Of a stretch of DNA of 64,000 nt, positions 17,340 through 57,709 are shown piece after piece. Made by a program: the position numbers and the translations under genes. Under the pieces are notes generated by a model. The model saw only the letters and a program-made list of their open reading frames with translations. It was not told the DNA's origin and searched no databases. The stretch covers positions 1,674,001 to 1,738,000 of the forward strand of contig CM066302.1 in assembly GCA_033807695.1 (NCBI GenBank). Direction: 5' to 3'. The stretch is from Daedaleopsis sinensis. Lineage: Eukaryota > Basidiomycota > Agaricomycetes > Polyporales > Polyporaceae. Every line of letters begins with the position of its first letter. Position 1 is the first letter of the stretch.

Positions 17340-17418
17340 AGCGGTACAATGGTGTTCTATAGGGGTAGAGGATAGAGCTAGAGGGGAAAGTTAGAGAGGG
17401 CTATTCATTTGCAGTTTA

Positions 17419-17595
17419 CTACTTGCACTTACCTCCTTGAACGTCACAGTAGACTTCTAAGTTGTAAGTTTTGATCGGCCAGGAAAGAGATGTGCAAAGT
17501 GCTCGAGCATGAGATATAACTGCTGCGATTATGCAGAGCATAAAGACAGCCTTCTGTAGCCATGATAACGAGGTCATCTTTGAGTATTGAGACAT
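17419..17595 (-). CDS. possible small secreted peptide or first exon
   Basis: An ATG at 17595 (or 17577) opens a frame with a strong hydrophobic segment after a short polar start (AVFMLCIIAAVI, then SHARA), which looks like a signal peptide with a possible cleavage after ARA. A short Cys-containing tail ends at 17419. A GTAAGT donor overlaps the end, so it may be exon 1 of a gene cut off where Helitron copy 1 begins at about 17.34 kb. No acceptor was found on the other side. Confidence 0.3.
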   Translation of the reverse strand: MSQYSKMTSLSWLQKAVFMLCIIAAVISHARALCTSLSWPIKTYNLEVYCDVQGGKCK

Positions 17596-17689
17596 GTTGG
17601 TCGGTCTGATGATGTGCAGGATAGAGGTTGTTGAAGAGACAGAAATGCTAGGGGGCAACTTCAACTTCAACATGCTCGCTTGCATGAAA

Positions 17690-18009
17690 AGTCATGTGAC
17701 CGTGTTTTCTTGATAAAGGATGCGCGTCTTTCCCAGACTCCAGTTTAAGAAGCAGTCCTGTTGAAGCAGACCAAATGCGATGCTTCCAAATCTCTGGTAT
17801 AAGTAAACTGCGAACAGATTACATGCGGGAGACTATTAGGAAGTCCATACACCGTCAACACAACACTACCAAAATACTGCACCGGAAACGTATGATAGGG
17901 AGCAAAGGCGATAAGAGCAGGAGGGAGCAAAATACCAGAGTAGACGTCTGCCATTGAAGATGGCGGAGATGGGATGAACATAGCCGGAAGGAGACATAGA
18001 AAGTGAAAT
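17690..18009. other. spacer
   Basis: No gene recognised. It holds the 3' flank of the 18.0-20.9 kb gene. Confidence 0.4.
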
Positions 18010-20923
18010 CTACACGCTCTTGCTACCGTACTTGGACACCAAAGCAGCGCCATACAAGTTCATCGACAGCACCGTGTCAGCCTTGTTGTAAGCAGGAGGC
18101 TTGTCACTGGATGACCCCCCGCCCTGACGGACAAAGTCAAAGGTACTGACGCTGTGATAGACGATGGCGAGGTCACCAAACTCCAGATCCTGCTGAAGAC
18201 GAGGAAGAGAGGCCACATTCTCGTGCAAGTACTGCAGCCCTTCGTCCTTGTCAAGAGTAAAGTACTCTCGAGCATCCCAGATAGCAACTGGGCATTGGTT
18301 AGACTCTGAAGACAATATAAGCACAGCAGCAACGCACAGTTCTCAGTGGAGCTCCAGCTGGTCTTGTCCCGCATGTCAAGTAGAGAGCGTGCTGGGCCTG
18401 CTGCAGTTCGCTTGGGGGTCTGAGCCTTGCGGAGCATGGCCGGGCTGGCCCCCATTCCACCAAGAGACCGTCCTTCATGAACCGTTGTCAGCATAAGTAC
18501 TCCAAAGCGAACATCGCAAACATACCGGGGTTGGGCTTCATGCCAGGGGTATCGGGGTATGTGCGGAAAACTAAACCAATTTGACGGTGCTCTCCAATTC
18601 CAGCCCCAAAGTTCTGAACTCCAAGTACCTCTTGGCCAAAGATAGTGCCGTAGAATGCAATAGAACGCTCCAGTTCCCCCCGCAGCGGGACCCCCAAGAA
18701 CTCCTTGATTGTACGCACAGGGGCGGTGGACATCTGAGCGGGTTCAATCATGTGACAACCAAGGCACACAACCATGGTGGCACAGATCAGGCGGGGAGGA
18801 GTAGGGCTGTTGACGTTGGCAGCTAAGCAGAAGGCCCGTGAGTTGTTGTACTGGTATGCTTTGGCAAGAGTAGGATCGGCACGAGCAGCGTTGATGACAA
18901 ACGGGTCATCCGCCTTGCCGTCGTGACTGAACTTCACCAGGTCTTCTAGCGCCCTACGAGTACATAAGAATGAGCAATTTCCACAGCTTCACAATGTAGA
19001 GACTTACTGAGGGTGTACATCATAGGGACCATCGATGATGTGGTCGTAAAGAAGTGCAGAACTCATAATGCTGCTGCCAGTATCTATTGCGCAGGGCCTA
19101 CGGGAAATATTAGACGACCTCTAAAGCTTAACTTAAGATCCAAATACTTACTGCAATACCGGAAGAGACTTGTACGACTCCCGCAAGAGATCGCACATCG
19201 CCCCAGGAGTCTCAAAGTCAAGGATACCCTCGTTCATATTCTCTTCAATGTGGATGTCCTGCATCCTGGAGAAAGCACTCGGTTGAGATAGAGAACGTGC
19301 AACATGTATTAAAAGTGACACATACGCTTCCGTAACATGGGCAACATCGCCCTTAGCAGACTCATCCAAAGCATCGGTAAACAACTTCGACTGCCTGCGA
19401 TATCTATGAGAAGTGTAAAGGATATGAGAAGAGAAAACGATGTAAAGTAAGGGGAGCATTACGTGTCGGAGGAGCGGTCAATGTCAGAGGGATTGAAAAA
19501 TGCATCTGCAGAGCTATTGCCCGCAGTTAGAAGCAGAAGATGATGGACGTGTTTTGTAGTCTCACTTAGGAGCCTTAGTGTCCTTGACCTTCCTCGGAGT
19601 GCCCCGAACAGCAGCCTTGGCAGCAGTGTTACCACGGGGAAGAGGAGGTGCGGTCTGAACCTTCTTGTCAACCATCTCGACACCTCGGTGGTTGCGTTTG
19701 GGGGTGGCCCTACATAACCATCTGGGTCAGCATAGGATGTGTAGCATGGGGAATCTGTAGACACGTACTCGACCATCTCAACATCCTCGTCCTCGTTGGA
19801 AACAGGAGTTCTGATCTGAATGTCAGATAAGTGGCGCTATAAGGGGCATGACACTTACTCCTCTCTGACCTTCTTGGCAGGTGAAGCCCTACAGATCGAG
19901 TTGTCAGTATAAAGTAAATGAGCACTGTAAGTCATAAGACTCACTCCTCTTCAGAGTCCTCATCTGAGTAGGATCTACGAGTAGAGGTTAGTACAATGTT
20001 AGAGTGGAGGCCGCTGTAGACTTACTCCTTGGTGCGCTTCCTGCTAGGAGTGCTGGCAGGCGCCACAGCAAAAGTGGGCTTCATCGTGAGGGTATTCTTG
20101 GGCTTCCTGTAGACCGGTCAGTACACAGACAAGTCAGGTATATGTGAACATACTTGGGGGAGGGGCTCTCTTGACTAACTGGCACCTCACCCTTCTTGAG
20201 AGAGCGACTAGAGACAGACATCAGGGGAGGGCTGAGGGTGTGGAGATATTCACTTACCGGATCTTAGGACTCTCCGGAGTGGAGGCCTTGCGAGCAACCA
20301 GCTTGCGGTCAGTAGTGACTTTCTTAATGGCCTGCTCGACAGCCTGGATTTCCTCCTGGTAGTCCTCGTCATCTTCGTTGCTGGCAACAGAGACGTAGCT
20401 GACATCGTCATCGCTGAAAGATGTTGGTGCATGGATAAACGCCAATTTTAGAATGCACTTACGAAGTAATGTCCACACCCGACCTCTCCTCAGTGTTATC
20501 TTCCTCCCCATGGTCCTCCTCCTCCTTGGCTGCCTCCTCCTCGTCAACCTCCTCAGCCTCATCTTCAACAATCTCAGGACTGCGGTGGATGTAAGTCAGT
20601 GAGAGTGGAGATCTACAAAGAGGAGACACGTACGTGATGGGCTTCTTGACCACGGAGCGTCCTCGAGCCTTGGGCTTCGCCCTATGGAACATTTGTAAGG
20701 TTGAGGTTACTTAGACATGAATAATGAATACGCACGTAGGAGTAGGCTTTGGAGCAGCCTTGGAAGTCTTGGTAGCAGGCTTGGCTGCAGCCTTGATCGC
20801 AGCAGCCTTTGCTGTCGTGGTCTTGACGGTGGCAGCCTTGGTGGGTGTACCCTTGACGGGGGTCGGCTTGGCGGCAGCAGCCCGGCCAGAGGGAGTGCAA
20901 GTACGAGCAGCACGAGAAGACAT
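18010..20923 (-). CDS. multi-exon gene, disordered N-terminus plus unknown C-terminal domain
   Basis: The ATG at 20923 starts an Ala/Lys/Pro-rich, histone-tail-like exon (MSSRAARTCTPSGR...). About a dozen short exons follow, separated by introns of about 45-60 bp with clean GTRNGT/YAG borders (first donor at 20735, acceptor at 20682). The middle is acidic (runs of Glu/Asp near 20470-20580) with basic patches, typical of a nuclear disordered protein. The C-terminal 300 or so residues (from about 19500 to 18010) are well composed. They include SDIDRSSDTYRRQSKLF, LLYDHIIDGPYDVHPQ and a long exon (18530-18960) with LICATMVVCLGCHM. Junctions I checked keep frame and the stop is a TAG at 18010-18012. 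I do not recognise the domain. Its charged N-terminus suggests chromatin or DNA contact, but that is inference only. It appears intact. Confidence 0.72.
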
Positions 20924-21059
20924 GATAGAGGCAAAGAGTGCAGTAAGCAACAAGAAGGGAAATGAGGCGAGATGAGAGTGATGAGGGAAATGGGATGAGG
21001 AGAGAGCACGGAGAGCAAGGAGGCGGAAGACTGTGTAGGTAGAGTTCAAGAATGATGGA

Positions 21060-21599
21060 CTCTAAGGCAACAGCGGGTCAGGCAGGGCTTATATAGCCCA
21101 AAACCAAGACCCAGAACACCTTCAGCCACCCGCGGTGCCAGGAGTGCGTGCACATAGGCAACCCGCTAGTGCAGACCTCAAAATATGCGAGGGCGCGGCC
21201 CGCTGATGGAATGCACAGCGATGACCTGCAAGCCTCTTCACGAATATGCTGCAGCGCAAGTTCTTCAATTTATCTCAGGTGCTCTAGTATGTATAAGCCT
21301 GTACAGATTAAGTTAAAGGGGAGAAGGAAATGTGGAGAAGAAGAGAGCTTAAAGAGTACGCTGCAAGCCTGGACAGAGCAACCCGTCTTCCCAAATAAGC
21401 GAGTCGGGTAACTGACCGGGGCATGCGCCTGCCTGTCTGTTCTGGCACAAGTTTAGAGCCAAGCGGCCGCGTAACTGCGTAGACCGTCAGCATGTTTGGC
21501 ATGAAACGGTGTCCGAACGGCAATGCTGACCTGAGCGATGCAGACGCAGCCCGGCGACGGCGCCCGCATCCGAGGCATGCATGACTGGCTTTAATCAAT
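21060..21599. other. probable promoter region and spacer
   Basis: Upstream of the gene starting at 20923. A TATA-like TTATATAG lies at about 21091-21098 (minus-strand reading CTATATAA), about 170 bp before the start codon, so it could serve that gene. No other gene is supported. Confidence 0.3.
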
Positions 21600-21604
21600 T
21601 CGAT

Positions 21605-21745
21605 TGCTTCGACTCTTGAATCAATCCACTCACCCCACTCTCATGAATGGATCCAATCACCCCACTCTCTTGAATCAATCCACTCACTCCACTCTCTTGA
21701 ACCAATCCAATCACTCCACTCTCTGGACTCTCATGAATCAATCAT
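21605..21745. repeat. 27-bp tandem repeats, block 1
   Basis: About five diverged copies of a unit built on AATCAATCCAATCACTCCA then CTCTCTTG. The same unit recurs at 22245-22480, next to the gag fragment, so the two blocks probably belong to one retroelement or its flank. Confidence 0.7.
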
Positions 21746-22244
21746 GTTGAACTCAGTGCAATCACTCTCGTTCTATTGCACCGCTCAAGCCGCAATTTTT
21801 ACTATAGGTTACATACCATGCACTCCACCGACGCTCGCGTTCCGGTGAGGCGAATGAGGATGGATGTGGGGTGAGTACAAGCAAAACTAGTGTGTGTGCA
21901 GAAGCACCTGTGTTGGTGTTCCAGTTAGCTGCTGCCGGCGTAGAGAGCCACAAAGTGCAATTTGCGGAGAGCATAGGCACAACCAGCAACAGTAGCTGCA
22001 CCAGCGGACTCCGTGGACATCTGCTGGACGTCCTTCGAGGCCTAGGACACATGAAGTCTAAGGACTCTAGAGCTCGACACAATGGTCTATTTACGTGTGC
22101 GCCAGCCCCGTGGGAAAGACCTCTACAGGAGTCGAGTGACCGGATGGATTCTTGAGACATTGGATCTATTTCAAGTGAGTCTATTGATTCATGCTACTCC
22201 AGCTTGTGGAGTGAGCCAATCAGTGCACAAGAGTAGACTATGAA

Positions 22245-22480
22245 TTGTCATGAATCAATCCAGTCACTTGAAGAGGCAAGCAGATCGGGCGACGGAGTGT
22301 GACACTGCAACTCTCATGAATGGATCCAATCACCCCACTCTCTTCAATCAACCCAATCACTCCACTCTCTTGAACCAATCCAATCACTCCACTCTCTTGA
22401 ATCAATCCAATCACTCCACTCACTCAACTCTCTCATCAATGGATCCAATCACCCCACTCTCTTGAATCAACCCAAGCTCT
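22245..22480 (+). repeat. 27-bp tandem repeats, block 2, coding-phase
   Basis: Repeated units of 27 bp encode a nine-residue repeat (NHSTLLNQS) in the frame from the ATG at 22250. The last unit runs into the gag-like protein. Because 27 is a multiple of three, copy number can change without breaking the frame. A one-base phase difference now separates the array frame from the gag frame. Confidence 0.7.
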
Positions 22481-23190
22481 CCAATCGCAACTTTCAGTCA
22501 TGGAAGCTCGACATGGAGGCTAGGCTTCGCACTCTTGGTTGTCTTCGCATCGTGCAAGGCACTGAGACCAGGCCTTCGTTCGTCCCGCCTCTGGACGCTG
22601 GAGAACGTCGCGATCTGCGCGATTTCGACAACAAGGTGGACCTGGCAGCAGGGGAGATCTGGGGTTGCGTGGAGAGGGAGCAGCACACGCATCTGGAGTC
22701 CATTCGGGACGATCCTGCGGCGATGTGGGTGAAGTTGGAGGCCGTGCACATGCAGAAACGTCCAGGTACGCGTTTTAACACCTACAACGCGCTCCTGAGC
22801 CTCCAAAAGGCCGACGACGAATCCCTATCCTCCCTCGCCACCCGGGCTTTGCAGCTGAAGTCCGACATGAAGTCCCTTCGACCCCCGGGGTTTGGCATTG
22901 CACAACTCGACGATGAGCTCGTCCTGATGACTCTCATCCGTGCGATGCCTGCAGAGTACGCTGCTCTGAGGCAAACGCTGCTCCTCGACGACTCCCTGAC
23001 CTGGGAGAAGTTGCAGGACGCGTTCATCGCGCTCGAAAACCAACCGGGACAGTCCTCCTTGACTCCCGTCCTCTCCAACGCCGCCTCCTCCGTCGAATGC
23101 ACGTTTTGCGGCATGTCGGGCCACCCGGAGACTCCCTCCCCCAGCCCATCTTCATCACCCTCTCGCTCTGCCGCCAAGTTCCTTCTCTGA
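22250..23190 (+). pseudogene. copia-type gag fragment
   Basis: The frame from about 22462 has the typical start of Ty1/copia Gag (PKLSNRNFQSWKLDMEARL). The helical Gag core follows (about 22620-23060, including MWVKLEAVH, a Leu-rich SSLATRALQLK and LVLMTLIRAMPAEY). A single zinc-knuckle beginning, CTFCGMSGH, sits at about 23098. The knuckle lacks its last Cys and the frame turns into a Ser/Pro run and stops at 23190, so protease, integrase and reverse transcriptase are absent. Gag packages the element's RNA in intact copies. No long terminal repeat was identified. It abuts the gene starting at 23200. Confidence 0.75.
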
Positions 23191-23199
23191 CCTGTTACA

Positions 23200-24516
23200 A
23201 TGTCCTATCTCGCTCAGCTTCGTGCAGACCCTCTCAAGTACCGTGCGTACCCTACCTTCCAATACTCTTCTTTTAGAAGACCGATCACTCTTCTAGGCAT
23301 GCTCCTTGACCGGGAGATGAAGGAGTCGTCAAGGCAGGATGACGGTCCAGCATACAGAGAGCTGGCAAGCATAGGCACAGTGAGTACATTGTCATGCACT
23401 TGTGATTCATGGCAGTTCACTTACCCATCACACTTTGCAGGACGTTGACTTCCCCAAGTTTGCTCAGGTCCGAGAGCAACGTGGTGGTCGTCAGTTGATT
23501 CTGATATACGCTGAGCCTGACCGGGTTGGAGACGTCGAGGAGGTAGTCTTGAACATCCAGGGGTATCTGTTGAACGCTACGTTGCCACCCATTCGTCAAC
23601 ACAAGTACGTTGTTAAGGTTCTCTGACTTGCCTGATATTGCTCATCCATCTGCCAAGTCTTCCTCGGAACCAGAACCGGCTCATTGATCTGAAGCAGTCG
23701 GTGACCTTGACCGGCTTGGCTTCGGAGCATTTTCATGCCGGCGTTCGTGGCGTGGGCGCGATGTATCATGCGTTCAAGATGTATCTGGGTAGCCGAGGCG
23801 GTCATCTTCGTTCATGGGCACCGGGCTGTGATGGAGGAGAGAGTCTCACCTTGTCATTCTCCAACCGCATCCTCACCATGGCCAAGGATGCTGAAGGCGA
23901 GAGAGAGTACAGCTTGGAGGACATTGTTGATCCCTTCAACGTCTTGCGTCCCCTCCTCCGCTCTGAGGTCCACACAATGGAGAACCACGTTGAGTATTGG
24001 AACCGTACTCTTCACCGACCTAATGACATTGAGAGTAGCCCGTGAGTTCTTGCCCTCCCCCCCTAGTAACCCTGGTCCGTTCAACTCACCTCGTCTATCT
24101 CTTAGTGCAAGGTTCGACCGCTACAAGCCGGAGTTCTTCAACCTGAGCAACATGGTTGAAGTCCAGGTCAGCTTCCAGGCCATCCGAGTCGCTCGGCAGG
24201 ACTACATCTTTATTCCCAAGCTCCGAGCAATTTGTCTCCTCCACCGAACCGCTGAAGCAGTATGTACTCACAGTTACTGGAGACTCCCTCAGCTTCTAAT
24301 GCCCACCCCGTGCAGGATTACAATATTGCAGCGATTGAGGCACTTGCTAGAGCCCCTGTGTCCCCGATGAAGAAGGTCAAACGAAAGATTGGTTACCAGC
24401 GCGGCAATGAGGAGGATTCAGAGGACAGCAACTCTCCGCCTACCGCACTCAAGCGCCTTTGCCTTCATGAACCAGACAACTCCCACGATCATCCTATGGG
24501 CGCTCCTTCTACTTAG
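23200..24516 (+). CDS. five-exon gene of unknown function
   Basis: ATG at 23200 (MSYLAQLRADPLKY...). Introns begin with GTGAGT at about 23380 (acceptor TTTGCAG), GTACGT at about 23603 (acceptor CCAAG), GTGAGT at about 24043 (acceptor TCTTAG) and GTATGT at about 24260 (acceptor GTGCAG). The frame is kept to a TAG at 24514-24516, giving roughly 390 residues. Visible features are an LGSRGGHLRSW loop, a Glu-rich central segment, and a basic, probably nuclear-targeting tail (SPMKKVKRKIGY) followed by an acidic Ser/Asp run. It does not match a family I know. It starts only 10 bp after the gag fragment, so its promoter may lie inside the retroelement. It looks intact. Confidence 0.72.
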
Positions 24517-24703
24517 ATTTACTTACTTACTTTGCTTCTTTCTTATCGTAGTCTTTGACATATTCTATAGCAATACATGCTTAATGGTACAGCAGTTCCT
24601 GCACAGTATCTCATACACATACCGTCCATCCAATTTGTACCTAGGAGCGCCAGCACAGACACTGAATCTGCTTATACTACGCTATACTGCAGATTCAGAG
24701 TCC

Positions 24704-25465
24704 TCATCCCATAAGAGCTTTGAAGATACATTGCGGTGATCGTAGGTCGACCTTGTAGGTTCGGGAGAATTTACATAACAGATGTTCGACAGTGATCAAG
24801 TCCAAACCCACTTGCTCTTGTGCCTCGACTGGAATCGTCGCTTGTAGATGATTCCACACCCGTTTGAAGGCCTTCTCAACAAGAGAGCTGTCCGGTTTGC
24901 TCTTCTTGCCAAGGTCCGGGACCTGATGAGCGAGTTGAAGTCCACGAAGCGAACCCAAACCGTTCCGATGAATGACGAAGGCAACATCTTCCTCCGTGGG
25001 TGTCGAGACCTTGCCCGTATAGGAAAGATCCGCTGCGAGGAGATATGCAGTGAGTGGACCAACATTCGGCAGATTCATGCCCTTGATGGTCTGGAGACCC
25101 CTCCGGTTGTCGCCCATCTCCCTCTCCTGCTTGCCCTGGAGCCACAGATACGCAGTCTTGAATGGAATTGGCCCGCCGTCGTGTTGCGCGAGAAGTGCCT
25201 TCCAGTTGGGCTCCATCTTGTAGTATGCCTTAGCAATCGTCTTCCCATCCCGACGGTCCTTCTGAGCACTTCCGTAGCAATTGACGTTGAAGAAGCGATC
25301 GAGAGATTCCAAGTTGTCCGGGTCATGTCCCTCTGCGTCCAGAAATGCGGTCCACGCCTCGTAAGTGGGGAAGTAGCAGTAGGTGGTCTCGCGCATGACA
25401 GGCGACTCGAAGAGCAACGCGCGGAAGATGACTGTGCTGGCGAAAGCACCGTCTTGGTCGATCAT
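24704..25465 (-). other. HhH domain like 5-hmdU kinase / aGPT-pyrophosphorylase families
   Basis: The C-terminal 253 codons are all-helical. They contain FRALLFES early, then LPNVGPLTAYLLAADLSYT (about 25020-25075), a helix-hairpin-helix with an Asp after the second helix, and VEHLLCKFSRTYK near the end. That order (FR-x-L start, L-P-x-[VI]-G-P-x-x-A-Y...D core, [IV]E-x-x-LC-x-[YF] end) is how I remember the family of DNA-glycosylase-like enzymes that process hydroxymethyluracil or glutamyl/putrescinyl thymine in phages, with fungal relatives. The assignment is by motif memory and needs a profile search. The frame is open upstream of the Met at 25465 through the preceding region, so it probably has no start of its own here. 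Confidence 0.55.
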
Positions 25466-28400
25466 GCTGGGATGGAATGGTCCTTCTACACTCGTCGCAC
25501 GCTGACGACAAGGAGCTAGCTCCCGATAGGGGGAGTAGTGGTCCAGATTTTTTCCGTGATCATTTGGAGACGAGTCGGGTGAGAAACTCGTTCTCCGAGA
25601 CAGACCGGAAGGACGTGTAGTGCATATCTGGTGAGCTCGTTTAACCCGTCCAGTATCTTTGGTGTTAGAGACTGGGCGGTTGAAGATAGGGCTGGAAGAA
25701 CGGACGAAGTGGACATTATAGAAGGTGCTGGTGGGACGGCGGAGGACGACGGTGCAGCAGAGGACGACGGCAGGGCTGAAGACGACGGTGCGGCTGAGGA
25801 CAATGGCACGGTGGACTCAACCGTAGAGGTTTGTGTGGAAGAGCGGGACGTTCGAGATGGGTTAGATGGTCGGGACGAGTGGGAAGGCTGAGACGAGGGT
25901 AATTGACATGATGGATTCGGTGTTGTAGTCAAGCTCTTCTGTTGCTGAGGGAGGAGTGACATATCGCCGTCGATCTGGGTGGTGAAGGTTTCTGTCCAAG
26001 CGCGTACTCCTGGCATGCAGCGTTCTGCTGTCTCTGAGAGCTCCTGGAGGGCTGCAGCATGCTGTGGGTCTCCCTGTGCGAGAGGGAGCTGGTAGAGAGC
26101 TGCGGTGAATGGAGCGAGCATGGAGACAGATAGTGAAGTGGCCTTCTTCTTCTGCCCTAGAAGCGAAGAGACGACTGATCGATATGTCGTCCACACCCCA
26201 GGAAGTAAGAGGATATCAGAGGTCTTGAACGCCTTGATGATGTGCAGCACAAAGTGCCCGGCCAGCATCTCAGTATTGTTTGGGAAGCGCAGCCACATGC
26301 GTAGCATAGCGATGACATTTGCGCATACACGAGGAGCGAGGTCGTCTTCAAGCTTGCGAGGGCGTTCGACGTAACCTACTTCAGGCCGTCCAGGGAGATC
26401 GGGAAGTTTGCTAGGGTCGTACGTGCCTTTCCTGCGCCCTCGAACGTCGGAGTAGACGTGCGCACACAACGTCTCCAACCAGTGACGAGATCGGCTGAAC
26501 TGTAGAGGACCCTTGGCCAGAGTAGCAACGATCTCACGACACCGTGTCGCGATCTCGCCGTTCAGCCAGTACCACGCGGCTGCGTTACAGAGCATCAAGC
26601 GGCGTCGATGGCCCCCGAGATGGAGCTCCGCGATGTCGGTGTTCGCCTTCTGTCCCTCGTACTTGGGCCACATCTGGGCGATGGCATGTGCTAGAGACGT
26701 TGATGGCAAGGCAGAAACCCGCCCGCTCTGGAAGACCTTCATGAAATCCTCAAGGCCTCGCTCTTCGGTTTGTGATGGGGAAGATGTGCATGCAAGGAGA
26801 CATTCAACTTCACAGAGATGAACAAGTTCTGCCTTTATGGCATTCAGCGAGAACAGGTCCAACACTTTTGCATATACTACAGGCCCAAAATCAGGGTGAA
26901 GACACGCGCAAGGGTCACGAGAGGTCACATACCTGGACGCTCGTTCTCAGCACGGGGGGATTCAGCAGAAGAGGATTGATCGAGAGTGTCGGGAATGGCC
27001 TGGGGTTCTATAGCACGCTCCTTGCGTTTGCGAACACTCTGAACCGGCTGAGGCGAGGAAGCCAGATCCTCAGGAGCGTCTAGAGTGTGAACTATTTAGA
27101 AGATGTAGAACATCTAATATCAATGCTTAGCAATACCTTGTTCCTCGCTCAAGGTATGCTCAATAGCGTCGCCATCGAGAAAGTCGAGCGTGCCAACTTC
27201 ACCGAACAACTGCATAAGATCTGGGTTTGACGGCTGCTCTTCTTCACTTTCGGAGGTCTCGAAGGAAGCAGCTTGAAAAGACAATGATGAGAGGTCAACG
27301 TATGTGCAAGTGGTCCTTAATACTCACTTGCATGCGGCTGAACGTCCAGTAACCGACGACTCCGCCGAATCGCGCTGCTAGTACTGCCAGTAGTACTAGA
27401 ATCTTGAGTCTTCGTAAACTTGGCCCGCTTACGAGTACGATGGCACTCTGCTATAGATAACTTAGACACTCAGTACCACATGAAAATTGCTGAAGTAGCT
27501 ACCTTCGTAGTTGCTGTCAGCATCCTCAACGTCCGCGCTGTAGTCTTCATCCGCGTCATCTTCACGAGACCGCTTTCCCTTAGATGCTAAGAGCGCGATC
27601 ATGAGAACAGCCTGCATCTAATACACGACCTACACACCTTTATTGGAGGTCTGTGCATCGTCACCGCTCTTGGTCTTCTTCGCTGTAGGCCCTGCAATGA
27701 TGAGACTACGGTAAGCGATGTATTAACCAGAGTCTGAGAGACTGCGCCATACCACCGTCGCCACTAGCATCAGCCTTACGCTTCCTCGGTTTGCGTGGTT
27801 TTGAAGGGTTTGCAGCTCTCCGTGCCTTCTCGGCGGCCTTTTCCGCCGCTATTTGAGTAGTAGATAAGGTTAGAATGCACAGATACAACTGGAGATATAC
27901 ATACCTTGCTGTGCAGCACGAACGACCGCAGGCATTAGTCGTGCATGTTTCTCCTTGTGCTTCTTCCATCGTTCGACAGACTCTTGACGCGTGCAGTCGA
28001 ATTTGCTTGATTTGATGTCAGAACCTGGATGAAGCTCCCAGAATGTTGGGTGAAGCTCAGTCTTGTCGTCCTTGACAAGTGTGAAGCATTCTGCAAGCTT
28101 GCGGTAATCGACGTTGATGGTCGCACCACAAGGAACCTGGCATCCGAAGTGATGCGCCATCTGGCAGAATGCCTGATAGTAGAACTGAAGAAACGCCGAC
28201 GGAGTTGTGAGACACAGACCGGAGCTCAACCAGTTCCCGATGTTCGTGGTGACGTGGCTGTTATCAAATCTGGAAGAGTACGAGCAGTGTGACTAGCAAG
28301 TACAAGTGTATAAGAGAAGGTGCACTCACGCCGGGTCGATGAACTCCGGTGGCAACACGAGCAGCTGTTTGCCGGGTAGCACGGCGAACCCGAGCCGAGC

Positions 28401-29925
28401 GGTCCCATCTAGCATTGCGCGGGGAGGGTAGCATACGACTGCAAAGCGGTAGGACCAGGGCTTTGGTGTATTCCCGGGCGCTGCAGTCGGGGGATAGGCG
28501 CCATGAAAGCGTAGCCCACAGAAGTTAATTACGACGACGCCTCCAAGACCTAGAGAAGTGATATGATCAGTCGACTGAACAAGAGCTCGCACATGTTCAG
28601 TACTTACGGACGGCACAGCCCAGATCACCAACAAGAAATGAACCGGGGTGCTCATCCGGAGCAATGTCGCTGCATGTGATCATCGACGTGTAACCGCCCT
28701 CACTATCCCTACCGTCCAGGTGTTTCCCACCGAAGTTTCCGAACTCTTCCTTGAGATTGTTTCCTAATCGAGATTGTTAGAACAGTAACACTGCATGTCA
28801 ATACAAAGTACCTTCAAGGGCCTCTGCAGGTTGCGCAGCAGCGAAGTTCGCCTGCAATGTGGGATGTGCGTAGTTGCCATCGAAGCCTACTGGAGGCAGA
28901 TTTGTGACCTCAGCCTGCAGCTTCAGAGCGTCACTGATCTCGTCAGGAGCTGCTTCCATGCAAGCGATACTGAGACGTGTAGCAGCCTTGAAGAGGACAA
29001 TTTGAACTCTGAAGCGTATATGACGAAAGTGACCTCAGACTGACCTCGACGATGTACTGACGGTTGCGGAGATGCTCATCAGGCTCTTCTCCCATGCGAA
29101 TCTTGGTGGATGCGGTCGGCCCAGCGAGGTTCCGTGGGATCTGGTAGGATTGGACGAGAGAGTAGCAGCGAGGAGCGTTCCCGATGTTCATCGCCCGATT
29201 TGAGTGCTCGTACAGCACACCGTCTTTGTATCCTGTAGGAGAGGTGTTATCTTCGGTTGCTTTCGTCGGTGTCCGGAAATCCCGGTGACCAAGTGCGAGG
29301 TCTCGAGCGTGTTTTATGCGTTTTACATGCTCTTCGGTCACTATGGCACTGAAGCTATCTCTCAACAACGTACTCGACAGATCGACAAGTATACTACCCA
29401 CCTGGAAGGAATCCAGAGTTGAAGTACATCGTCTTCTTCTTTGTGAGAGCCGCTGATATCACAGCAGAACACGTAGTCGCCAGGCTCAAGGAAGAAGAAG
29501 CCTGTAAATAGGTCGATATTGGTCCAGAACAGATCGTGGATCACCGAGACGTACCTCCTTCCTCGATAGCTTCATCGGTCCCTGTTGGGAACTTCATAGC
29601 TTCGAGGAACTCATAGTACTCCTTCATGGCCGCCGCAGATGTATCTTGAAGATAAACGAATACACGTTTCGCTCTCCAGGAAAGCTTGACCTTCGCATGC
29701 GACTTAAGGAGGTACAGGCGCGGAAACCTGGGGTCACGATTCGGGATGTCGACGACTTCGCCATTCGGGCGTGGGCACTCTATGCCAGAGATGGAGGACA
29801 GAATACACCGTGATTCAATGGCATGACTTACTTGGAAACTGTTCGTCCATCAATACGGGCCCTGGTTCTTTGTTCCGGGCAGCCTTGGACTTGGCCGCGC
29901 GGGCGATTGAAGATCGAGGCAACAT
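24704..29925 (-). CDS. JBP/TET-like oxygenase spliced to an HhH base-modification domain
   Basis: The ATG at 29925 starts MLPRSSIARAAKSKAARNK. Some fourteen exons with introns of about 45-170 bp keep frame from here to the 26.9 kb exon; all checked linker junctions are phase 1. The first part (about residues 1-460) is a 2-oxoglutarate/Fe(II) oxygenase of JBP/TET type. It has metal ligands KHLDG (His 249, Asp 251) and FHGAYPP (His 302), and SYRFAV Arg 321 for the 2OG carboxylate. A basic/acidic linker follows, then a helical segment (26888 down to about 25930), a Ser/Ala/Pro tract, and a C-terminal HhH domain (25465-24704). The junction at about 25500-25700 needs an intron or frameshift that I could not resolve; if there is none, this is two adjacent genes. 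Predicted nuclear, acting on DNA bases; the substrate is unknown. Confidence 0.62.
25516..26888 (-). other. central helical and Ser-rich part of the 24.7-29.9 kb gene
   Basis: Joined by a phase-1 intron (donor GTATGT after GAGCGTCCAG, acceptor GCAAAAG at about 26889) to the linker exon, so the apparent ATG at 26928 lies in an intron. The first 300 residues are helical, with conserved-looking Trp and Leu positions (AAAWYWLNGEI, HWLETLCAHVY). A low-complexity Ser/Ala/Pro tract follows (about 25930-25690). The frame then ends at a TAG at 25516 while a second frame, open through the same stretch, leads into the HhH domain. Confidence 0.6.
27860..29925 (-). other. oxygenase half of the 24.7-29.9 kb gene
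   Basis: Exon-by-exon reading. The first exon of 31 codons is followed by an intron with GTAAGT at about 29830. The exon with MYFNSGFLPGYKDG joins only if the acceptor ATATCAG near 29460 is used. The H-x-D exon lies at about 28763-28608. After an intron of about 58 bp the distal-His exon follows (28551-28329). It ends with a helical segment containing FYYQAFCQMAHHFGC. HxD, distal His and Arg are all present in the expected order, so the domain looks active. JBP/TET enzymes hydroxylate thymine or 5-methylcytosine in DNA. Lineage-expanded fungal members are known; which base this one uses cannot be read from sequence. Confidence 0.68.
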
Positions 29926-30300
29926 GATTTGAGACGAACGGCTTGAAAGTCGATGTTGAAGGGGACAGTCGAGCTATGAGCAGTCAGTATCTGCGAGAAC
30001 GTATACCGAGAAGTGTGTATATAACAGTCGTCGTCGGCTCGAAAAGCATGGGCACAGGGCACCAGTCGGCGGCGAACACTTTTTTTTTCAGTCTACAATA
30101 GCCAGAAGATGGCAAGTGTCCATTACGACCAAGATTGGGGCGAATGAAGGAAGGTGTAGAAAGGAAAGGAACGAGACCAACTACACACCTCCTTGACAAA
30201 CAATTTTCTTCTGAGGAGAGCGATGTCGAAAAAACTGCCACCCAAGATACAGTTTCCACAGTTCGCGCGTACTGGGAGACAGGAGAGGTGTAGGTAGGCT
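29926..30300. promoter_or_regulatory. upstream region of the oxygenase gene
   Basis: The non-coding stretch directly before the ATG at 29925. A T8 tract at 30081-30088 is the only notable element. No clear TATA box was seen. Assignment as promoter is positional. Confidence 0.3.
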
Positions 30301-30423
30301 TTGACGATAGCAGAGTATGAGAAGCGGACGTTACTGGGGTCCCAGAATAGAGCAGGGGCAGGACTTAGAGCAGATATGGCGGAGAGAAAGACCGGCGAGG
30401 TAAGGACCTCGGGACCCGGTGCT

Positions 30424-30490
30424 CGGCCGAAGGAGCGTGCTGAGGCTGCCCCGCCGCTGTCGGGGCAGGCTCAGCACATGATTTCGGCCG
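30424..30490. repeat. GC-rich imperfect hairpin, 29-bp arms
   Basis: Arms at 30424-30452 and 30462-30490 pair as CGGCCGAA, a 5-base mismatch bubble, GTGCTGAG and CTGCCCC, with a 9-base loop. It is much more GC-rich than its surroundings. It could be a terminus of a small element, a transcription barrier or a structured RNA. Confidence 0.65.
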
Positions 30491-30991
30491 AAACTCCGGG
30501 AGCCAAGAGATAATGATCGTAGACCCCTCTGATTGGATAATGCAGGCCCTTGGTGTCGAATGCCAACCAGCGGCACATACCTATGGGAAGTAGGACACAT
30601 AGTCGCTGTGAGTATACTACTCTACACAACTGTAGAGCATCAAATTCTGCCGTCGCCTATTCCAAGGGTTCAATATATACTGTGTACTGGAGACACGCTT
30701 ACCTGGTCAGCGATATCCCAAAATATCGGTATCATGCATGGCGCGAGTTCATATACCCAGAGTCAGACGAGCTACACAGTACAGTAGGCTACTAGACATC
30801 GTGCATTAACAAGATTGTTCTACTGACTACTACAACATATGTAGATACTACGGTATCGAAGCACTCACCTATAAAATGTTTGGAAACGTACCTGTACTAG
30901 AAGCCGAGGCAGAATTTGAGTTTGCAGCCGTGTAAGTCGCCATGTTGGTCTTGTAGGAGGTACATAGTATAGGTACTAGCTGGGAGAGACG

Positions 30992-31252
30992 CTACACCTC
31001 GTCAAACGAGATGGAGGTCAAGAAGGAAGAAGGTTGTGTTAGTAGGCGCTGGATGGCATCGCCCCATAAGGCAGTCGGCGTCTATGCACAGCACTTGAGC
31101 GTCTCTACACAGCACGTGGGGTTCTCTGAGCACGTGGTGTCCCTGCACAGCATACCCTTTATAGATGCCTCGGACTTCTCGCTCTTTGCTCACGTCCTTT
31201 GCATCTTACCACCATCGCACCGGTGCTCTCCATCTCGTTTGACGAGGTGTAG
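30992..31252. mobile_element. 261-bp inverted-repeat element (MITE-like), TA-flanked
   Basis: Perfect 25-bp terminal inverted repeats at 30992-31016 and 31228-31252. Their outer part reads TA then CACCTCGTC, so the repeat can be read as CACCTCG...CGAGGTG flanked by TA on both sides, as in Tc1/mariner-type insertions. Each arm also holds an internal CTCGT-CAA-ACGAG hairpin. The interior has no credible gene, only CACAGCA-like repeats. The perfect arms suggest recent movement or selection for pairing. Confidence 0.65.
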
Positions 31253-31556
31253 AGTCACTCGAATCACTGTAAGCTACTGCTATACTGTAGTAAGACATTG
31301 TCAAAGATCAGTAAGTGAGCTTTAGACACTGTCAATGCGCTGGTATTAAGACTTAGAGGTTCTGAAGGCATACCTCGCACACCCGGTCAGTATTAGAACA
31401 TACACTGTCCATGTGACAGGCGAATCACCCATGTAATCTGACCATAAAGGCAGTTGAAATATCTGCACGACATCTGTGGTCTCCGCTGGTTCTAAATATG
31501 GTTATTTAGAAGTAAGAATCCAAGGTAAGCGACATTGTCGATTAAGAAACATACAC
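31253..31556. other. spacer upstream of the 31.6-34.6 kb gene
   Basis: No gene seen. It presumably contains the promoter of the plus-strand gene. Confidence 0.35.
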
Positions 31557-34500
31557 TATGTTGTTCTCTTGTAAACCAACTCCGACCGATCTATTTCTTG
31601 CACACAGTGAATATACTATCTGCTTCTGGTCTGGTCCGTATAACATTCGCAAAGCCGTGTTCATGGAGGTAAGTCCCCGACGAACAGTTTCATGATTGAA
31701 CTGTGCAGGCTATGCCACAGAGTTTGGGGCGATCTTATTGACACTGTCTTCACACAGGTCAGCCAGATGAACCACAGCAAGCGAGACGATGTTTGGCATG
31801 TATCATAGCATCTCTTTGGAATCGAATCACACTAATTGATAAATCGAATTAGGAGGGAACGCACCTACACATTTACCGACAGCAGCAGGAGTCTCTACAC
31901 CGTAACCAATGTTCCAGATGCCATTCACTTACCGGCCTACATCGACACCAATCCAATCGATACAAAATCTCTTCGAGACCTGCTCAGGCCACAGTACGCA
32001 ACTGTGGAAGCTCCGGAACTTGCCTACCTCCTGCGAACCCCGCCTCTGCACGATCCCTTACTGAGCCGGTTGTGCTGTGAGAGCCATACCCTCCATCCAG
32101 TTCAACACGATAACGGCACATGGGCCCTACCTCTTGAGCTGCGCCGATCATGGAAGCAGTTAGAAACCCTTCTAGCTGCTGCTTCCGACCGCCTCCTTCT
32201 CCTACAAAACAGCCGTGCTGCTTCGTCCATCAATATGCATGAGCCATGGCCCTACCCGTCATATTACAGGTACCTCGACATGCACTCGTCCAGGCCCAGA
32301 GCCCTTGCAGCCATCAGGAGGTCCCGAGAAGCAATGATGATACTAGCCGCGCGCTGTTCCCTGGCGTTAGCTGTGTGCATCGCGACGTCGCCGATTACAA
32401 TGTTGAATTCCACCGGTGTGCCGCCTTGGGTGCCGCTACTGGAGAAAGAAGGGATACCATCCTCGTTGATCGACGTGCTGAACAGCTCCCTAATCGCAAA
32501 CTTCTCACATGGGCTCCGGGTAGGAGCTATTGTGGACCCTACATCCTGCAGATGGCTTGATCACCTCCCCATCATCCGACAAGCGAAGGTCCCGCTGACA
32601 ATCCGGTGGGGTAATGAGCGTGCCATTCACTCTCTGTGCCAGCAATATCCTTTCCTACGCCCCTTTGCGCCTGAAGCGACAACAGACTGTAAGCTTGCTC
32701 TGACAACCCCCCTGAGGCCCGAAGCACCGTACATTTATAAACTGTACCTGAACGGTGAAGGACGACCGCATCCATATATCAAGAAGATTGAGGAGCGTCT
32801 CTATCCCCGGCCACACGGACCTTTCCAGTTGCCTGGTGAGAGTCGAAGAGACTTCTTAGCGCGTATGAAAAGACGGGAGGAGCAGAGCATTGCACGTGAA
32901 GGAGCAGCTCAACGAGCACGTCGGTTAGATCGTGAGGCGTATGCGATGAGTGGACAACTTCCGAAGGCTTATAGCCGTGTATACCTTTGGATCAACGCTC
33001 GACTTGTCAAGCCGGATCTACCAGACGTCTTCAAGGACCTCGAATTCCGTGCGGAAGTCCATTCAGCTGCGGTGCCTGGCTTATGGCATGCATATGGGCC
33101 GCTGAACCGGTTGTACACCGCGCTCTTTGATGAATGGGATCTCTGGTCCGACGAATCCGAGGTCCAAGTCCACCCCTTTGAACAGATCTTCGACGCAGGG
33201 GAAGGTTTACCTACAGAGAGAGAAGACCATGCCTTCGATATACCCGATCCCATCGCTTTCTCCCCTAGGTCTCGCGAGAACCGGTCGGCACAATCTAACC
33301 GGGACCAGGGCCGTGCTGCGCTGTTCGCAGCTGAACACGATACTTTGTATCACGAAGCTAGTCCACCGGAATATCCCATCGTTGACTTCAGCAAGTGGTA
33401 CTTGGAGACGAAGTACTTACGGGAGCGATACGGGCTGTATCCAGACCACTCGGAGGTGGATATCAGCATTGACTACAAGGTCTACTCCGGAGACAAAATG
33501 TTTGCGGTCTTCGGCTTTCCCAACGACTGCGGTAACATATCTTTCCGTGCAAGCGACATGCAGGCATACGCGGGATGGGCATGGGCTCTGCTGAATGATG
33601 CGAATGGATCGTCTGCAGCATGGGCATGCTGGGATATGGCGCGGGACAGTCCACACTTTCTGTTCAAGCCTGGTGAGTGGAGAAAGCCTCTGAGTGTCAA
33701 GATGGTCACCACAGACAAAGACGGAGTTACACTGTACGCCATCAACTATGTTGCAGATAGTGCCGACCTTGGATGGACCCTTGTCGTGAATAGCCGTGTG
33801 CTTGTGATTCTCTTGTGCCTTCTCCCTACTGTCATGGACAGTGTCGACGCTGCATTTGAACTAACTCAAATTGGTGCTCCATTCATGACCGCTGCTCCTA
33901 TATACCACGATGGACCACAGGAGGCTGGCGAGATCCACCCTTCCATCCCGTACTACCGACATCGTTTGCTTCCCTCCTACCGTCTGGACAACTATGTGCA
34001 TAGTTTTCTTGACTACAGGCAGTATTCACAACAGGTCCTCGACTTCTTGCGCTCAGGCCCACATGCTAGAGCCGCTCTATTGCACGGAGGTATTGTGTGG
34101 TGCCTCGTGACCGAATTCAGCGGGAGTAGCGACGGTATCGTAGAGCTGATCCGCTCTTATGCCTCACTCGGGCCGACGGACAATGAGAACCATCATGAGG
34201 TCATTGGAAGACTGGACGGTGTCACCCTCGTCGATGATAGGCTGTCAGAGCAGGAGCTAGCAATGATCAGCGGTGTTACAATGGTGTACACTCGTAAGTA
34301 GTACTACCAGTATTACCGTCTTGATTAACTTACTAACAGTGCAGCTATAGAACAATACAACCAGAAGGAAGAGATTTCTTGGTGGCCCAAGCCGTCGATA
34401 TGGCGAACGTCAGGGATGTATACTGGGATCTGGACACCGAGAAACGAGGAGTGGTTTCAGAGTAGGCTGGTGGAGATCAGACGCGGTATCGCAGTCCCTC

Positions 34501-34622
34501 TGAAAGTTCGACAATGGCGTTCGTTACTGGGACAATATCGGCCTTGTGCAAAGCTGGCAAATGCAGCAGACACCGCGATAACTAGCATTATTCAGGAGTA
34601 CTTACTGTTAACCCAACGCTGA
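31557..34622 (+). CDS. large Agaricomycete-type hypothetical protein
   Basis: A long open frame (about 31852-34295) is preceded by a probable first exon with ATG at 31557 (MLFSCKPTPTDLF...) ending in a GTAAGT donor. The long frame itself has no ATG at its left end and starts after a likely AATTAG acceptor. A last intron (GTAAGT at about 34296, GTGCAG acceptor) leads to a final exon with SWWPKPSIWRTSG and WTPRNEEWFQSRL, stop at 34620-34622. The total is about 900 residues. The combination of WVPLLEKEGIPSSLID, LRVGAIVD with VPLTIRWGN, a basic helical segment and the SWWPKP tail is, from memory, typical of a multi-copy family of unknown function in mushroom genomes. No catalytic motif seen. It appears intact; initial exon boundaries are uncertain. 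Confidence 0.65.
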
Positions 34623-34944
34623 GCGGATTGCGACATAGATACTTTGCCAGACTCTTCAATTTGTATCCAGATGCCAGGTGAATTGAATAGACATATTGCA
34701 ATAGCAGTGGGTACACTGGGTACTCTATCGTAGTACTAGTATAGGTAAAAGACAACACAATACAGAGCAGAGAACCTCTAGACTCATAGTCTAAGTCTAA
34801 AAGTCAGAAGCTGAATCTTCTTGTGCTTGGTATCCTGTGCGCTAGTGTTATACCGAACATCTAAAAGAACGTCGTAAGAGGTCAACTGTCAGAGTATTGC
34901 ACTATAGAATACCCATCTACATCGACTTACTCGCAGGGACATAT
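34623..34944. other. convergent intergenic region
   Basis: The 3' ends of the plus-strand 31.6-34.6 kb gene and the minus-strand 34.9-36.5 kb gene face each other here. No further gene seen. Confidence 0.4.
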
Positions 34945-36483
34945 CTAGTGGGCTCTCTCCTTCCCCTTTCTGCTTGTACCTTCGCTGTTCGACAGTTCTG
35001 ACTGTACGCTCTGTACATACTCTGTGAGATCTTGAAGTGCTCGCATGACATTGTCGAAACGACCACACTGTTCTTCCCTAGCAGCTTGAATGTCACGACG
35101 CAGTCCCTCAACCGCCAATTCTATAGGACTGGTAGATGCAATTGTGGGGCGTGAATGAGAGTGGGTCGAGCCTGCCATGCTCGTGTCAGACTGATCACAA
35201 ATCAGACGCTGCGTAGTAGTTGAAGCAGCGAGCTGATTTGGATCGACATGAGTTGTGGCAAACAGAGCGTCCGGCTGGTTCAGCTCGATGCGAGTAGCGG
35301 CGAGCAGGGTAGCAGGCTGGCGAGGCTCAACATGAATGGGGGTGAACAGAGCTGCGGGCTGGCTCATCTCGACGTAGGTGCCGGTGGACGGAACTGCGAG
35401 GGGGTGTGACTTGATGTGAGAGGTGGAGGCTCGGGCAGACATGTGCGACTCGAGGTGGGACTGAGTGGTGGAGGATGGAGTGGTGGATGAGTGTAAGGCG
35501 GTATGGAGGCTGGACAGACCGGCAGACCGGCGCGACTCGACGTGAGTGCTGCTGGAGAGAGCTGCAGGCAGGCGCAACTCGACGTGATTGTGGCCCGGGT
35601 GATCTATGCGCGCGTGGAACCCAGTGCGAGAGGCAGAGGCTCGAGCGACCAAATGTGGCTCGACGGGAGCGGTGACAGACAGAGCGGTAGATGAGCGCCG
35701 TTGGACATGACTTCTGGACAGAGCAGCAGAAGTATGTGGCTCAACATGTAAAGGGGAGGGAGTGACGTTATGCACAGAAGCAGACCTTGAAGAGCCGGAA
35801 ATACGAGACGAGCGTCGGAGGGGAGTGCTTGAATGCGTGATTGACATGTATATGGAGCTACCACCATCTGTGCTGTGAATGCCGCTACCCAGTGCCGTTG
35901 ATAGCTCGTGCTTGCGGAGCAGACTGGGTATCAATTGGAGCCCATATCTGTTGCACTCTATGGCGATCGTCAGTAAGAACGACACATAGTAAGACGAGAA
36001 CGGCGCACCAGTCATCCAATCACAGTACGACCGCCCATGATGAGAACACTTCAGACACTTCCAGGTGCATCGGCCTTGGTCCTCTTGAACACACTCGTAG
36101 CCTTTGGAACGGCAGTACGAGCAGGATTTTGAGCGTATGTTTCTCAGAATGTCGATGTAATTTGATGGCAGGGTGTGTGTTCGTAATCGTGCTGGCAGCA
36201 ACAAGGGGATAGACTGTGAGGTGTGTGGAAGTGGAGCGGACTGATCGTGAACTGGCGGTGAGGCTGAGACGGTCTGGGAAGAGATGAGAGATGCCTAACG
36301 ATTACATGCGACGATGCATACCGGAGTACCCGCTGCGTCCTCATCGATTTTCATGGGGGCTGATAATGACCGTGCATTGGGTTCAGGATCATCGGGGATC
36401 TCATCGTCCTGCTCCTCCTTAACCTTAGGGGCCTGTTTTTCACCCGCAGCTACAATCCGGAGTCCGATAGCCTGAACCCTTTA
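34945..36483 (-). CDS. Cys-rich (zinc-binding-like) protein with coiled-coil tail
   Basis: Exons read from the minus strand are an acidic/proline exon (EKQAPKVKEEQDDEIPDDPE, about 36323-36483), then an intron with GTATGC donor and CTTCCCAG acceptor. Next comes an exon with CSYCRSKGYEC followed by CTWKCLKC and a further Cys, the C-x2-C-x4-5-C...C-x2-C spacing seen in many Agaricomycete proteins, here probably binding zinc. A 50-bp intron (GTGCGC...CCATAG, about 35957-36007) follows. The rest is Ser/Thr/His-rich with repeated HVE-x-R/H-x-[SP]-A-x-L units. It ends in a Glu/Gln/Leu-rich coiled coil (GLRRDIQAAREEQCGRFDNV) and a basic tail. The stop is at 34945. The 5' end is not resolved. Function unknown; DNA or protein binding is a guess. 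Confidence 0.55.
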
Positions 36484-38710
36484 GACTTCTTTCCGCATCT
36501 TCCAATGTGTCTTCTTCCTTCATGAGACAAGCAAATGTGGGACGTAGGAGGTGAGATGCAGGCGCTGAATATTGATGCGAAAAAAAAACAGACATTAGCG
36601 GAAGTATCTGGAACTAGCTTGGCGGATCTTGCGCCGTATATTGCCACCTGACCAGAGCACGATGCTGCCCTATCCACACTTCTGCAAAGGCTTCGTACGA
36701 CTGTTCTGCTTCATACAACCGTTCTGTATATCTGAGACATGTACAATGCTTCTACTCTTTCATGTGATAACTGGTTTCAGGCTTGTCTACTAAGTATCTG
36801 GGCTCGTCGATGACAGTAGCTTTTTTGCGTACTCGTTAGGACTTGCAGTACACTCAGTTATTCACCACACGTCCAGCAGGGTATAGTATTGCACAGTAAA
36901 GTGAGTGTCTAGTTTAACTACAGGGCCAAAGCAAAAAAATGTATGGGACTTTACCTGGTTTCGACTACTTACCTTACGACCGTACACCACTTGTGGTGGA
37001 GACTGAGAGGGAGCAGCAGAGGACGTGAGAGTAAGCAGAAGAGCTCTTTAGTGAAGATCCAGCAGCTATACAGCACTCAATACCACGTCAAACGTAGTAG
37101 ACAGTGCCGGTTGAAGGCAAGAGAGAGGTGATGAGGTAGAAGATGGGGACGAAGGACAATTGAGAGCGAGCGGTAGGTAGGAGCCTGTGGCGGTGCAGGG
37201 CGCTTATAACTTTCCCACGCGAGCCAGGCCAACCCTAGGCTAGGGTTTATCTAATAGAAAAGTTACTTACACTGGACTTACATGTCTTACATAATCACTT
37301 ACAGCTTCCTTTCGGACATTAAACATTATTCCCACGGGCTCAGGTTCGCGTTACATTTTTGGCAGGAAGTGTCGTCCATAAAGGACGATTTCTTCGTATA
37401 CTCATCAATCGTAACACTGACATGCTAATCTCCACTACTTCATAGTTGGGACACCGACCGACATTGTTACAGCACATATTAATGTGGTCGGCCAAGGGAC
37501 GCTGGGGCAGTAAAAACGAGGACCCTTGCAATGAGCTCTATGATCCTTATCCCCCCTACATTCAGGACTTCATGCCATTGAAGAATATTGAAGAGTATAA
37601 TCACCCACCTATGCGTGGAATTAGATATATCCAAGGGTCGGCTGAGACAGCAGCGCTGCGTCCCGCCATTGTTCGACCAATACTAGACACAACACTACAC
37701 AAGCGTGCTCCTACCACTCACCATATTTCACCCACCCGCCGCACACCCCTGTTTCACACCCCTGTTTCGAACACCGACAGACACAATATGTAGAGGACCG
37801 ACAATTGGTGCACTGCACGGGTGTTGACCCACACATTAGGTCAGAGAACCGATATTGCTGCACCACTGCCCCAGAGATGCTCTAGGCATCCCACTGAACA
37901 TGTATATGTGGGCGGGCACGCTATAGCCATTGACTGAGGTATAGCTGGCCCCCATCCGCATCACCCCCAGTGACTCTTCCGCCCCCGTGCATCGACTGAC
38001 ACGGTACGTCAGATTGCGGACATCCCAACACCACTCACTCACCCACCCCCTCCCCGGTGTTCGAGCTTCAGCTGACATGTGATGCTCATCAACCAATGGA
38101 CTGCCACATTGTGCAGGGGCAACCCCCCATTTCGCTCCCCGAGCTCGGGGGCGTCAACCGACACTGTATAATGCATTGCTGACCTCGCAGCACAACAGCC
38201 TGGATGAAGCTCTCAGCACACCTCTCCCTGCTCACTGACTACCACAGCTGCACATGTCATGCAGGCTACCCCTGGAGGGTATCGGCAATGCTCACCATCC
38301 TATTACTTGTCTAGTGAGCGTTGACCGACTGACCGGTGCGGGCCACCAACAGCATCACTAACATATATCATTATAGGAAGGTGTTGGTCGAAGGGTATAT
38401 AATGTATATATTAGGAACCATCAGTCGATGTCGGCTGTCCAGCAAGTCAGCCATTTAGTCAACCTTGGTTATACAGTAAGTATTATACATAGAGTGAGAA
38501 GGTTGTGAACAAGAGCCACCAATGCGCATCCCCAGCCGTCCACTTTTCAAGGCTCCGGCCCCTCTACCCGAAGCTGTGAATGTGGAAACAGCAGCTTCAA
38601 CCCAGCACATCCCAATCCATGCGCTGGTGCAACACCCTGTGTCCACAACACCTGCATCTGCCCCATCTACGGAGCGATGAATTCCGACTCGTCGCATTAT
38701 CCCTTCTGAC
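36484..38710. other. gene-poor region
   Basis: Only short frames. One plus-strand stretch (37446-37793) has a plausible composition (WSAKGRWGSKNEDPCNELYDPYPP) but no ATG-led structure or family I know. A 17-bp palindrome, AACCCTAG around a central base, lies at 37231-37247. The rest appears non-coding. Confidence 0.35.
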
Positions 38711-57630: not shown

Positions 57631-57709
57631 TGAAATGTCTGTCTATATGCTGTAGCAGCCCTACCATTTCATGGTAGCCATATAGAGCATATAAAGTAGA
57701 CACATTTCA
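57631..57709. repeat. nested hairpin at the truncated end of Helitron copy 2
   Basis: The outer arms TGAAATGTCTGTC...ATGCT (57631-57651) and their near-complement (57686-57709) pair with small gaps. The loop contains a second perfect hairpin, CTACCAT-TTC-ATGGTAG (57661-57677). Homology with Helitron copy 1 stops at the right foot of this structure. Confidence 0.65.

Follow-up and report, generated by a model that had tools for sequence, protein, structure and literature searches.

A giant Helitron of Daedaleopsis sinensis carries a gene of a family that joins a predicted Fe(II)/2-oxoglutarate oxygenase to a domain distantly related to the phage HMUDK/aGPT-PPlase helical domain

We analyzed a 64,000-bp stretch of the Daedaleopsis sinensis genome (contig CM066302.1, positions 1,674,001 to 1,738,000 of the forward strand), hereafter called the window. 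We find that it holds a giant Helitron with the gene order E-D-A-C-B-RepHel (Table 1). Gene A, the subject of this work, is the cargo of this autonomous-type element, a context that was absent from an earlier note on the same DNA.

Table 1. Coordinates of the giant Helitron, its genes and the parts of gene A in the window.
Feature	Position	Strand	Basis or remark
Giant Helitron bearing gene A, 27,273 bp	10142..37414	- (RepHel sense)	Terminal motifs and hairpin
Helitron 3' terminus: subterminal inverted repeat CTCATCAATCGT, hairpin, end CACAAG, then T	10142..10190	-	
RepHel (DUF6570, Helitron_like_N, PIF1)	10247..17390	-	Introns unmodelled
Gene B (approximate)	18010..21060	-	73-98% nucleotide identity beside other copies
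Insertion with copia-type gag ORF inside the Helitron	21583..23131	+	Absent from the twin
Gene C (approximate)	23191..24513	+	71-78% nucleotide identity in 7/13 paralog loci compared
Gene A (oxygenase, charged linker, helical region, C-terminal HhH-like domain)	24704..29925	-	Frameshifted here
C-terminal domain	24704..25510	-	HMUDK_hel match at 24755-25075
Site of the missing base (comparison with the C12 twin)	25552..25553	-	Alignment with the twin; frame stop 25518-25516
Central helical region	25998..26876	-	No Pfam match
Oxygenase core exons	28330..28763	-	Motif codons read by eye
R	28448-28446	-	Codons read by eye
Distal H	28505-28503	-	Codons read by eye
HxD	28722-28714 (H 28722-28720, D 28716-28714)	-	Codons read by eye
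ORF D, 821 aa	31836..34298	+	No match above the Pfam cut-off
ORF E, 449 aa	34948..36294	-	No match above the Pfam cut-off
Helitron 5' terminus TTACGATTGATGAG...	37355..37414	-	Motif; first 14 bases identical in 7/7 other copies fetched

The ends of the element recur elsewhere in the genome. All seven other copies for which both ends were fetched have the same termini, and they lie in seven different flanks, each of which then continues with T; the base before the insertion is A, G or T and the base after it is T. Four of the RepHel DNA matches in other copies end at about window position 10137-10141. Six of the seven other copies are 24.25-24.49 kb long and one is 33.5 kb; with the window included, 24-27 kb holds for 7/8 copies measured. 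A twin stretch on C12, whose gene A (L044) is 95% identical to the window copy, is interrupted, at the position equivalent to window 31067, by 24,454 bp of inserted DNA, and the insert is another copy of the Helitron. The two sites (window 31067 and C12:2555497-2579950) form an empty/filled pair and a clean record of a transposition. A target duplication is absent from this pair, the sole site compared. We thus find the characters of a Helitron: a RepHel protein, asymmetric inverted repeats, a 3' hairpin and, at the C12 pair, no duplication.

Two other markers of the element's extent were rejected. An inverted repeat at 30984-31260 is not an element end because the 5' end lies at 37414, and the C12 twin is unusable for this purpose because homology continues past both ends of the gene, the C12 and C3 stretches being either duplicated or allelic. 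This Helitron family is represented by a second element, a decayed one, which occupies window 57705-62801 and C3:1738839-1751245 and holds RepHel pieces, genes B and C, a broken gene A and D. Elsewhere in the window, a reverse-transcriptase ORF (RVT_1, E 1.2e-9) lies on the minus strand at 47457-48968.

We also checked the other genes of the Helitron. The RepHel frame, read from 10250 to 16054 without intron modelling, contains two stops. Neither the four ORFs searched in gene B nor the three searched in gene C gave a significant Pfam match. We considered a transposase for two conserved blocks, one at 18-21.5 kb and one at 23-24.5 kb, and dropped this candidate as the ORFs searched there gave no significant Pfam match. 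The insertion with the gag ORF also has 27-bp spaced tandem repeats. For the synteny tally, 27 of 78 RepHel rows and 28 of 56 D rows were entered, mostly one per place. RepHel lies downstream of gene A on the same strand at 18/26 gene A places within 40 kb (16/26 within 13 kb). D lies upstream on the opposite strand at 18/26 places within 40 kb (16/26 within 11 kb), two of the D assignments, at 21 and 34 kb, being doubtful. One place on C12 (C12a) was left out of the D count because another copy inserted there; the D pieces belonging to C12a are found on the far side of that insert. A RepHel match in the expected position is missing at 8/26 gene A places, and 9/27 RepHel places have no assigned gene A.

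The earlier note had read gene A as one spliced gene in which every junction checked from the oxygenase through the linker to the helical exon keeps frame, so that an apparent start at 26928 would be intronic. Our exon chain agrees with this. Fifteen minus-strand exons run in frame from the ATG at 29925 to the stop at 25518-25516, and 26928 is indeed an intronic position (intron 26932-26877). The predicted product up to this stop has about 1,210-1,215 aa, a range set by alternatives at four junctions; acceptor 29341, one junction alternative in the gene, leads to an early stop. The last in-frame exon in the window copy contains the central helical region. The C-terminal domain, with the LPNVGPLTAY and VEHLLCKF motifs named in the note, is on the same strand as the rest of the gene. 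However, its frame in the window copy (25816-24704) differs from that of the helical exon.

In the C12 twin, the helical and C-terminal parts read through in one frame. Compared with the twin, the window copy has lost one base near 25553, and its helical frame therefore terminates at 25518-25516. Trying five last introns to splice the helical exon onto the C-terminal domain, we found that only 25605-25520 kept the frame. We prefer a frameshift over this intron, given its weak splice sites and the fact that the twin uses the corresponding stretch as coding sequence. Gene A of the window is frameshifted, through mutation or sequencing error.

Searching the 51.6 Mb assembly (24 contigs), we find 26 matches to the helical region of gene A genome-wide. 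The paralog exons translated from ten of these 26 places all hold the helical part and the C-terminal domain in one open frame to the stop (10/10, counting C10b and C4a, whose shared frame was inferred from coordinates). Gene A is broken at three places (L013, L023/L039 and L038), the window copy being the fourth. At the remaining twelve places, the match lies in an open frame of 670-724 aa ten times and in a short frame twice.

Related NCBI proteins number 16 and are listed from Earliella, Lentinus, Daedaleopsis, Ganoderma, Polyporus and Sparassis, all of which we take to be Polyporales. Ten of these proteins were examined at full length and P0004 by alignment; for the other five we used the listing, a summary alignment and the motif counts. 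The domain combination is shared by other fungi: the oxygenase, the helical region and the C-terminal domain stand together in 4/16 models (P0001, P0003, P0004 and P0006), with P0004 lacking the R and P0006 the HxD of the oxygenase. P0002 ends within the C-terminal domain, and P0007 is without the end of that domain and without the oxygenase core. The ten models left are shorter and are uninformative on an absence of the fusion because eight of them came from a search restricted to short proteins.

The paralogs and the other species together support, at the family level, one gene for both predicted modules. The single spliced fusion gene of the earlier note thus holds for the family, but not for the window copy, in which the C-terminal domain is out of frame. 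As it stands, the window sequence reads as two genes, one for an oxygenase-helical protein that ends at 25516 and one for a small HhH protein with its ATG at 25465. The one-base deletion relative to the twin, the single frame in all ten translated paralog exons and the independent NCBI models that join the parts argue against this arrangement, which we consider highly improbable.

An HxD motif, a distal H and an R make up the signature of Fe(II)/2-oxoglutarate oxygenases, and the window copy carries all four residues (H, D, distal H and R). We counted these motifs in 26 aligned rows, namely the window, nine paralogs and 16 NCBI proteins. Among rows with letters at the position, HxD is present in 23/25 (lost in P0006 and changed in P0015), the distal H in 22/22, and the R in 18/21 (replaced in P0004, P0008 and the C12 twin); P0005's R and P0013's H sit in doubtful alignment stretches. 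All ten first-exon matches, obtained by searching 13 paralog loci, keep KHxD. From these residues, the oxygenase is very likely an Fe(II)/2-oxoglutarate enzyme, a confidence that we lowered slightly because the recount found three cores without the R.

The earlier note had gone further and called the oxygenase JBP/TET-like. Our comparisons did not bear out this identity. Pfam gave no Tet_JBP match in the oxygenase. A profile comparison with six Tet_JBP sequences of the same genome and CcTet scored 13.8, below the best of 80 shuffles (21.2), with HxD and the distal H in register; neither of two attempts at such a TET/JBP comparison was significant. Searches against PDB sequences, solved TET structures included, gave no noteworthy match, one of them using a chosen nine-row alignment without P0004, P0006, P0008 and the twin and with three unsupported residues at the exon join of its L048 row. 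In all, Pfam, PDB sequence and profile comparisons gave no significant match of the oxygenase to any 2-oxoglutarate family. HxE, the PE-type TET signature, is in none of the 26 aligned rows. The genome has 22 Pfam Tet_JBP matches, all at loci other than gene A.

In another reading, the oxygenase targets protein or RNA (e.g. histones), and the C-terminal domain only binds DNA or nucleosomes. The lack of a significant sequence match to TET/JBP and the linker, which in translation is highly charged and has basic stretches, would suit such a role. However, the partner of the oxygenase in the fusion is related to a domain found in phage gene sets for DNA modification, and the gene is carried by a DNA transposon. 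We consider a protein or RNA substrate unlikely.

For the C-terminal domain, the earlier note had proposed a link to the HhH group of HMUDK and aGPT-PPlase. We find a distant relative of the HMUDK/aGPT-PPlase helical domain, with the likeness confined to the C-terminal half. Pfam PF18723 (HMUDK_hel) matches the window domain with E 1.9e-7 and 31.2 bits (cut-off 25), and matches the C12 twin above the cut-off with 27.6 bits. Two paralogs, C11d and C11b, score below the cut-off (23.5 and 15.5 bits), and the three other paralogs tested and P0001-P0008 gave no HMUDK_hel match in Pfam. Comparing a profile of twelve relatives (window copy excluded) with one of six phage proteins and a gene on C5, we obtained a score of 46.7 over 129 columns, in comparison with a best of 22.8 from 60 column shuffles. 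A comparison using one HMUDK sequence had given no clear signal, and the six phage sequences were then added. We take the last half of the C-terminal domain to be homologous to the last half of HMUDK_hel because of this excess over the shuffles. The first half of HMUDK_hel is unaligned in the profile comparison, and the match thus falls short of a full-length domain. Within the 129 aligned columns, G-x-x-x-A-Y...D-L and V/I-E-H-x-L-C are common to both. Searches of PHROGs and NCBIfam gave nothing significant.

In phage HMUDK/aGPT-PPlase systems, the helical domain has a partner kinase domain or gene. The phage genes with an HMUDK_hel-type domain adjoin genes annotated as thymidylate synthase or thymidylate kinase. 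The gene on C5 (L043, C5:2051834-2052760) is a stand-alone HMUDK_hel gene whose two exons, scoring 231 and 112.8 bits, together cover the full profile. It matches 287 phage records, phi_M6 among them at 4e-15. The available text of PMC6449724 gives M6 as a phage with 5-(2-aminoethyl)deoxyuridine.

These phage relatives bear on another reading, hypermodification. The oxygenase would make hydroxymethyl-uracil or hydroxymethyl-cytosine in Helitron DNA, and the HMUDK-like domain and the products of B-E would build a larger adduct on it, protecting the Helitron or its rolling-circle intermediate in a phage-like manner. The relationship of the C-terminal domain to a phage domain that is encoded beside thymidylate synthase or thymidylate kinase genes and is present in phi_M6 is consistent with it, as are the full-length stand-alone relative on C5 in the same genome and the travelling of genes B, C and D, which have no assigned function, with gene A. 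However, HMUDK_hel is matched in its C-terminal half only, and the Helitron ORFs searched, though their gene models are incomplete, include neither a kinase nor a glycosyltransferase nor any further modifying family that is known. We regard hypermodification as unlikely. Still less probable, in our estimate, is a giant Helitron family equipped with a phage-like hypermodification set, in which the oxygenase-HMUDK fusion and B-E would make a new base that marks or shields the transposon.

Comparing the window with its twin, we find dN 0.053 and dS 0.465 in the C-terminal domain, 98-99% identity in the helical part of the protein, and dN 0.006-0.014 with dS 0.007-0.044 in the rest of gene A. Residues 1-140 alone have a clearly lower dN (0.006 vs dS 0.044). 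In the diverged paralogs dS is saturated, and raw pN/pS is 0.37-0.53 across the eight such pairs. The divergence of the C-terminal domain would fit an exchange with another subfamily together with constraint on the domain. The window and twin copies may be dead because the rates outside the C-terminal domain are near neutral. The window Helitron also looks like a decaying copy because of the copia gag insertion, the RepHel stops and the frameshift in gene A.

For the family, action on DNA bases is the most likely role of an oxygenase that is borne by a transposon and fused to a domain related to one of phage DNA modification. The oxygenase would probably oxidize the methyl group of a pyrimidine in DNA, and the HhH-like module might bind, flip or hand on the oxidized base. 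In effect, host 5-methylcytosine on the Helitron could be removed or masked and the element could escape from silencing, to which we give about an even chance. A similar role has been suggested for other transposon-borne TET/JBP genes; Kojima 2025 (PMC12730594), in its available text, proposes that TET+ transposons counter methylation silencing. Our observations suggest that the Helitron brings its own DNA-modifying tool. Taken whole, we lean modestly toward a Helitron-borne oxygenase-HhH fusion that would oxidize bases and help the element to escape from silencing. If the enzyme acts on DNA, counter-silencing by mushroom mobile elements would be tied to phage base-modification chemistry. For testing, the family offers a concrete gene, several open-frame copies and a clean insertion pair.

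In open-access titles and abstract openings, a scope outside which the 2013 and 2014 papers of Iyer et al. fall, we found neither an oxygenase-HMUDK fusion nor a giant Helitron bearing one. Both papers reportedly treat basidiomycete TET/JBP and aGPT-PPlase genes, and the 2014 paper is said to cover the TET+ DNA transposons of fungi as well. The AG-type Tet_JBP (CcTet-like) genes of the same genome have HxD and the distal H in register with the gene A oxygenase. However, they occupy separate loci, and their H-to-R spacing is 9-10 in the five aligned, in comparison with 19 in gene A. To the AG-type sequences compared, the gene A oxygenase has no significant similarity. Relative to the phage HMUDK/aGPT-PPlase1 helical domain (PF18723), gene A adds the oxygenase and the helical region.

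The TET+ fungal DNA transposons of Kojima 2025 (PMC12730594) likewise bear a dioxygenase-like gene, and some of the carriers are Helitrons. The available text distinguishes the classes AG, PU and PE and, for Polyporales, gives no carriers other than Kyakuja. Unlike the PE-type of that paper with its HxE, the gene A oxygenase has HxD, and unlike its TET+ transposons, gene A has an HMUDK-like domain joined to its oxygenase. The available main text has 0 occurrences each of 'Fusion', 'HMUDK' and 'helix-hairpin'. Helitron2/FoHeli, as described in the available text of PMC5148889, likewise has a RepHel gene, asymmetric inverted repeats of which the 3' one is subterminal and, in some elements, a 3' hairpin. 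In comparison with FoHeli (about 5-11 kb), the window Helitron family measures 24-27 kb in the 7/8 copies given above; it also differs from Helitron2/FoHeli in its end sequences and inserts before T, after A, G or T. The HELPO elements of Pleurotus ostreatus (PMC4289320) are likewise basidiomycete Helitrons with captured genes. HELPO1.1 is smaller, at 6.6-7.2 kb among the rows listed, and the available main text on HELPO contains 'TET' and 'oxygenase' 0 times and 'dioxygenase' once. Dioxygenase-bearing transposons are already known in fungi; the one described here is a 24-27 kb Helitron that has mobilized an oxygenase-HhH fusion gene repeatedly, along with one and the same set of accessory genes.
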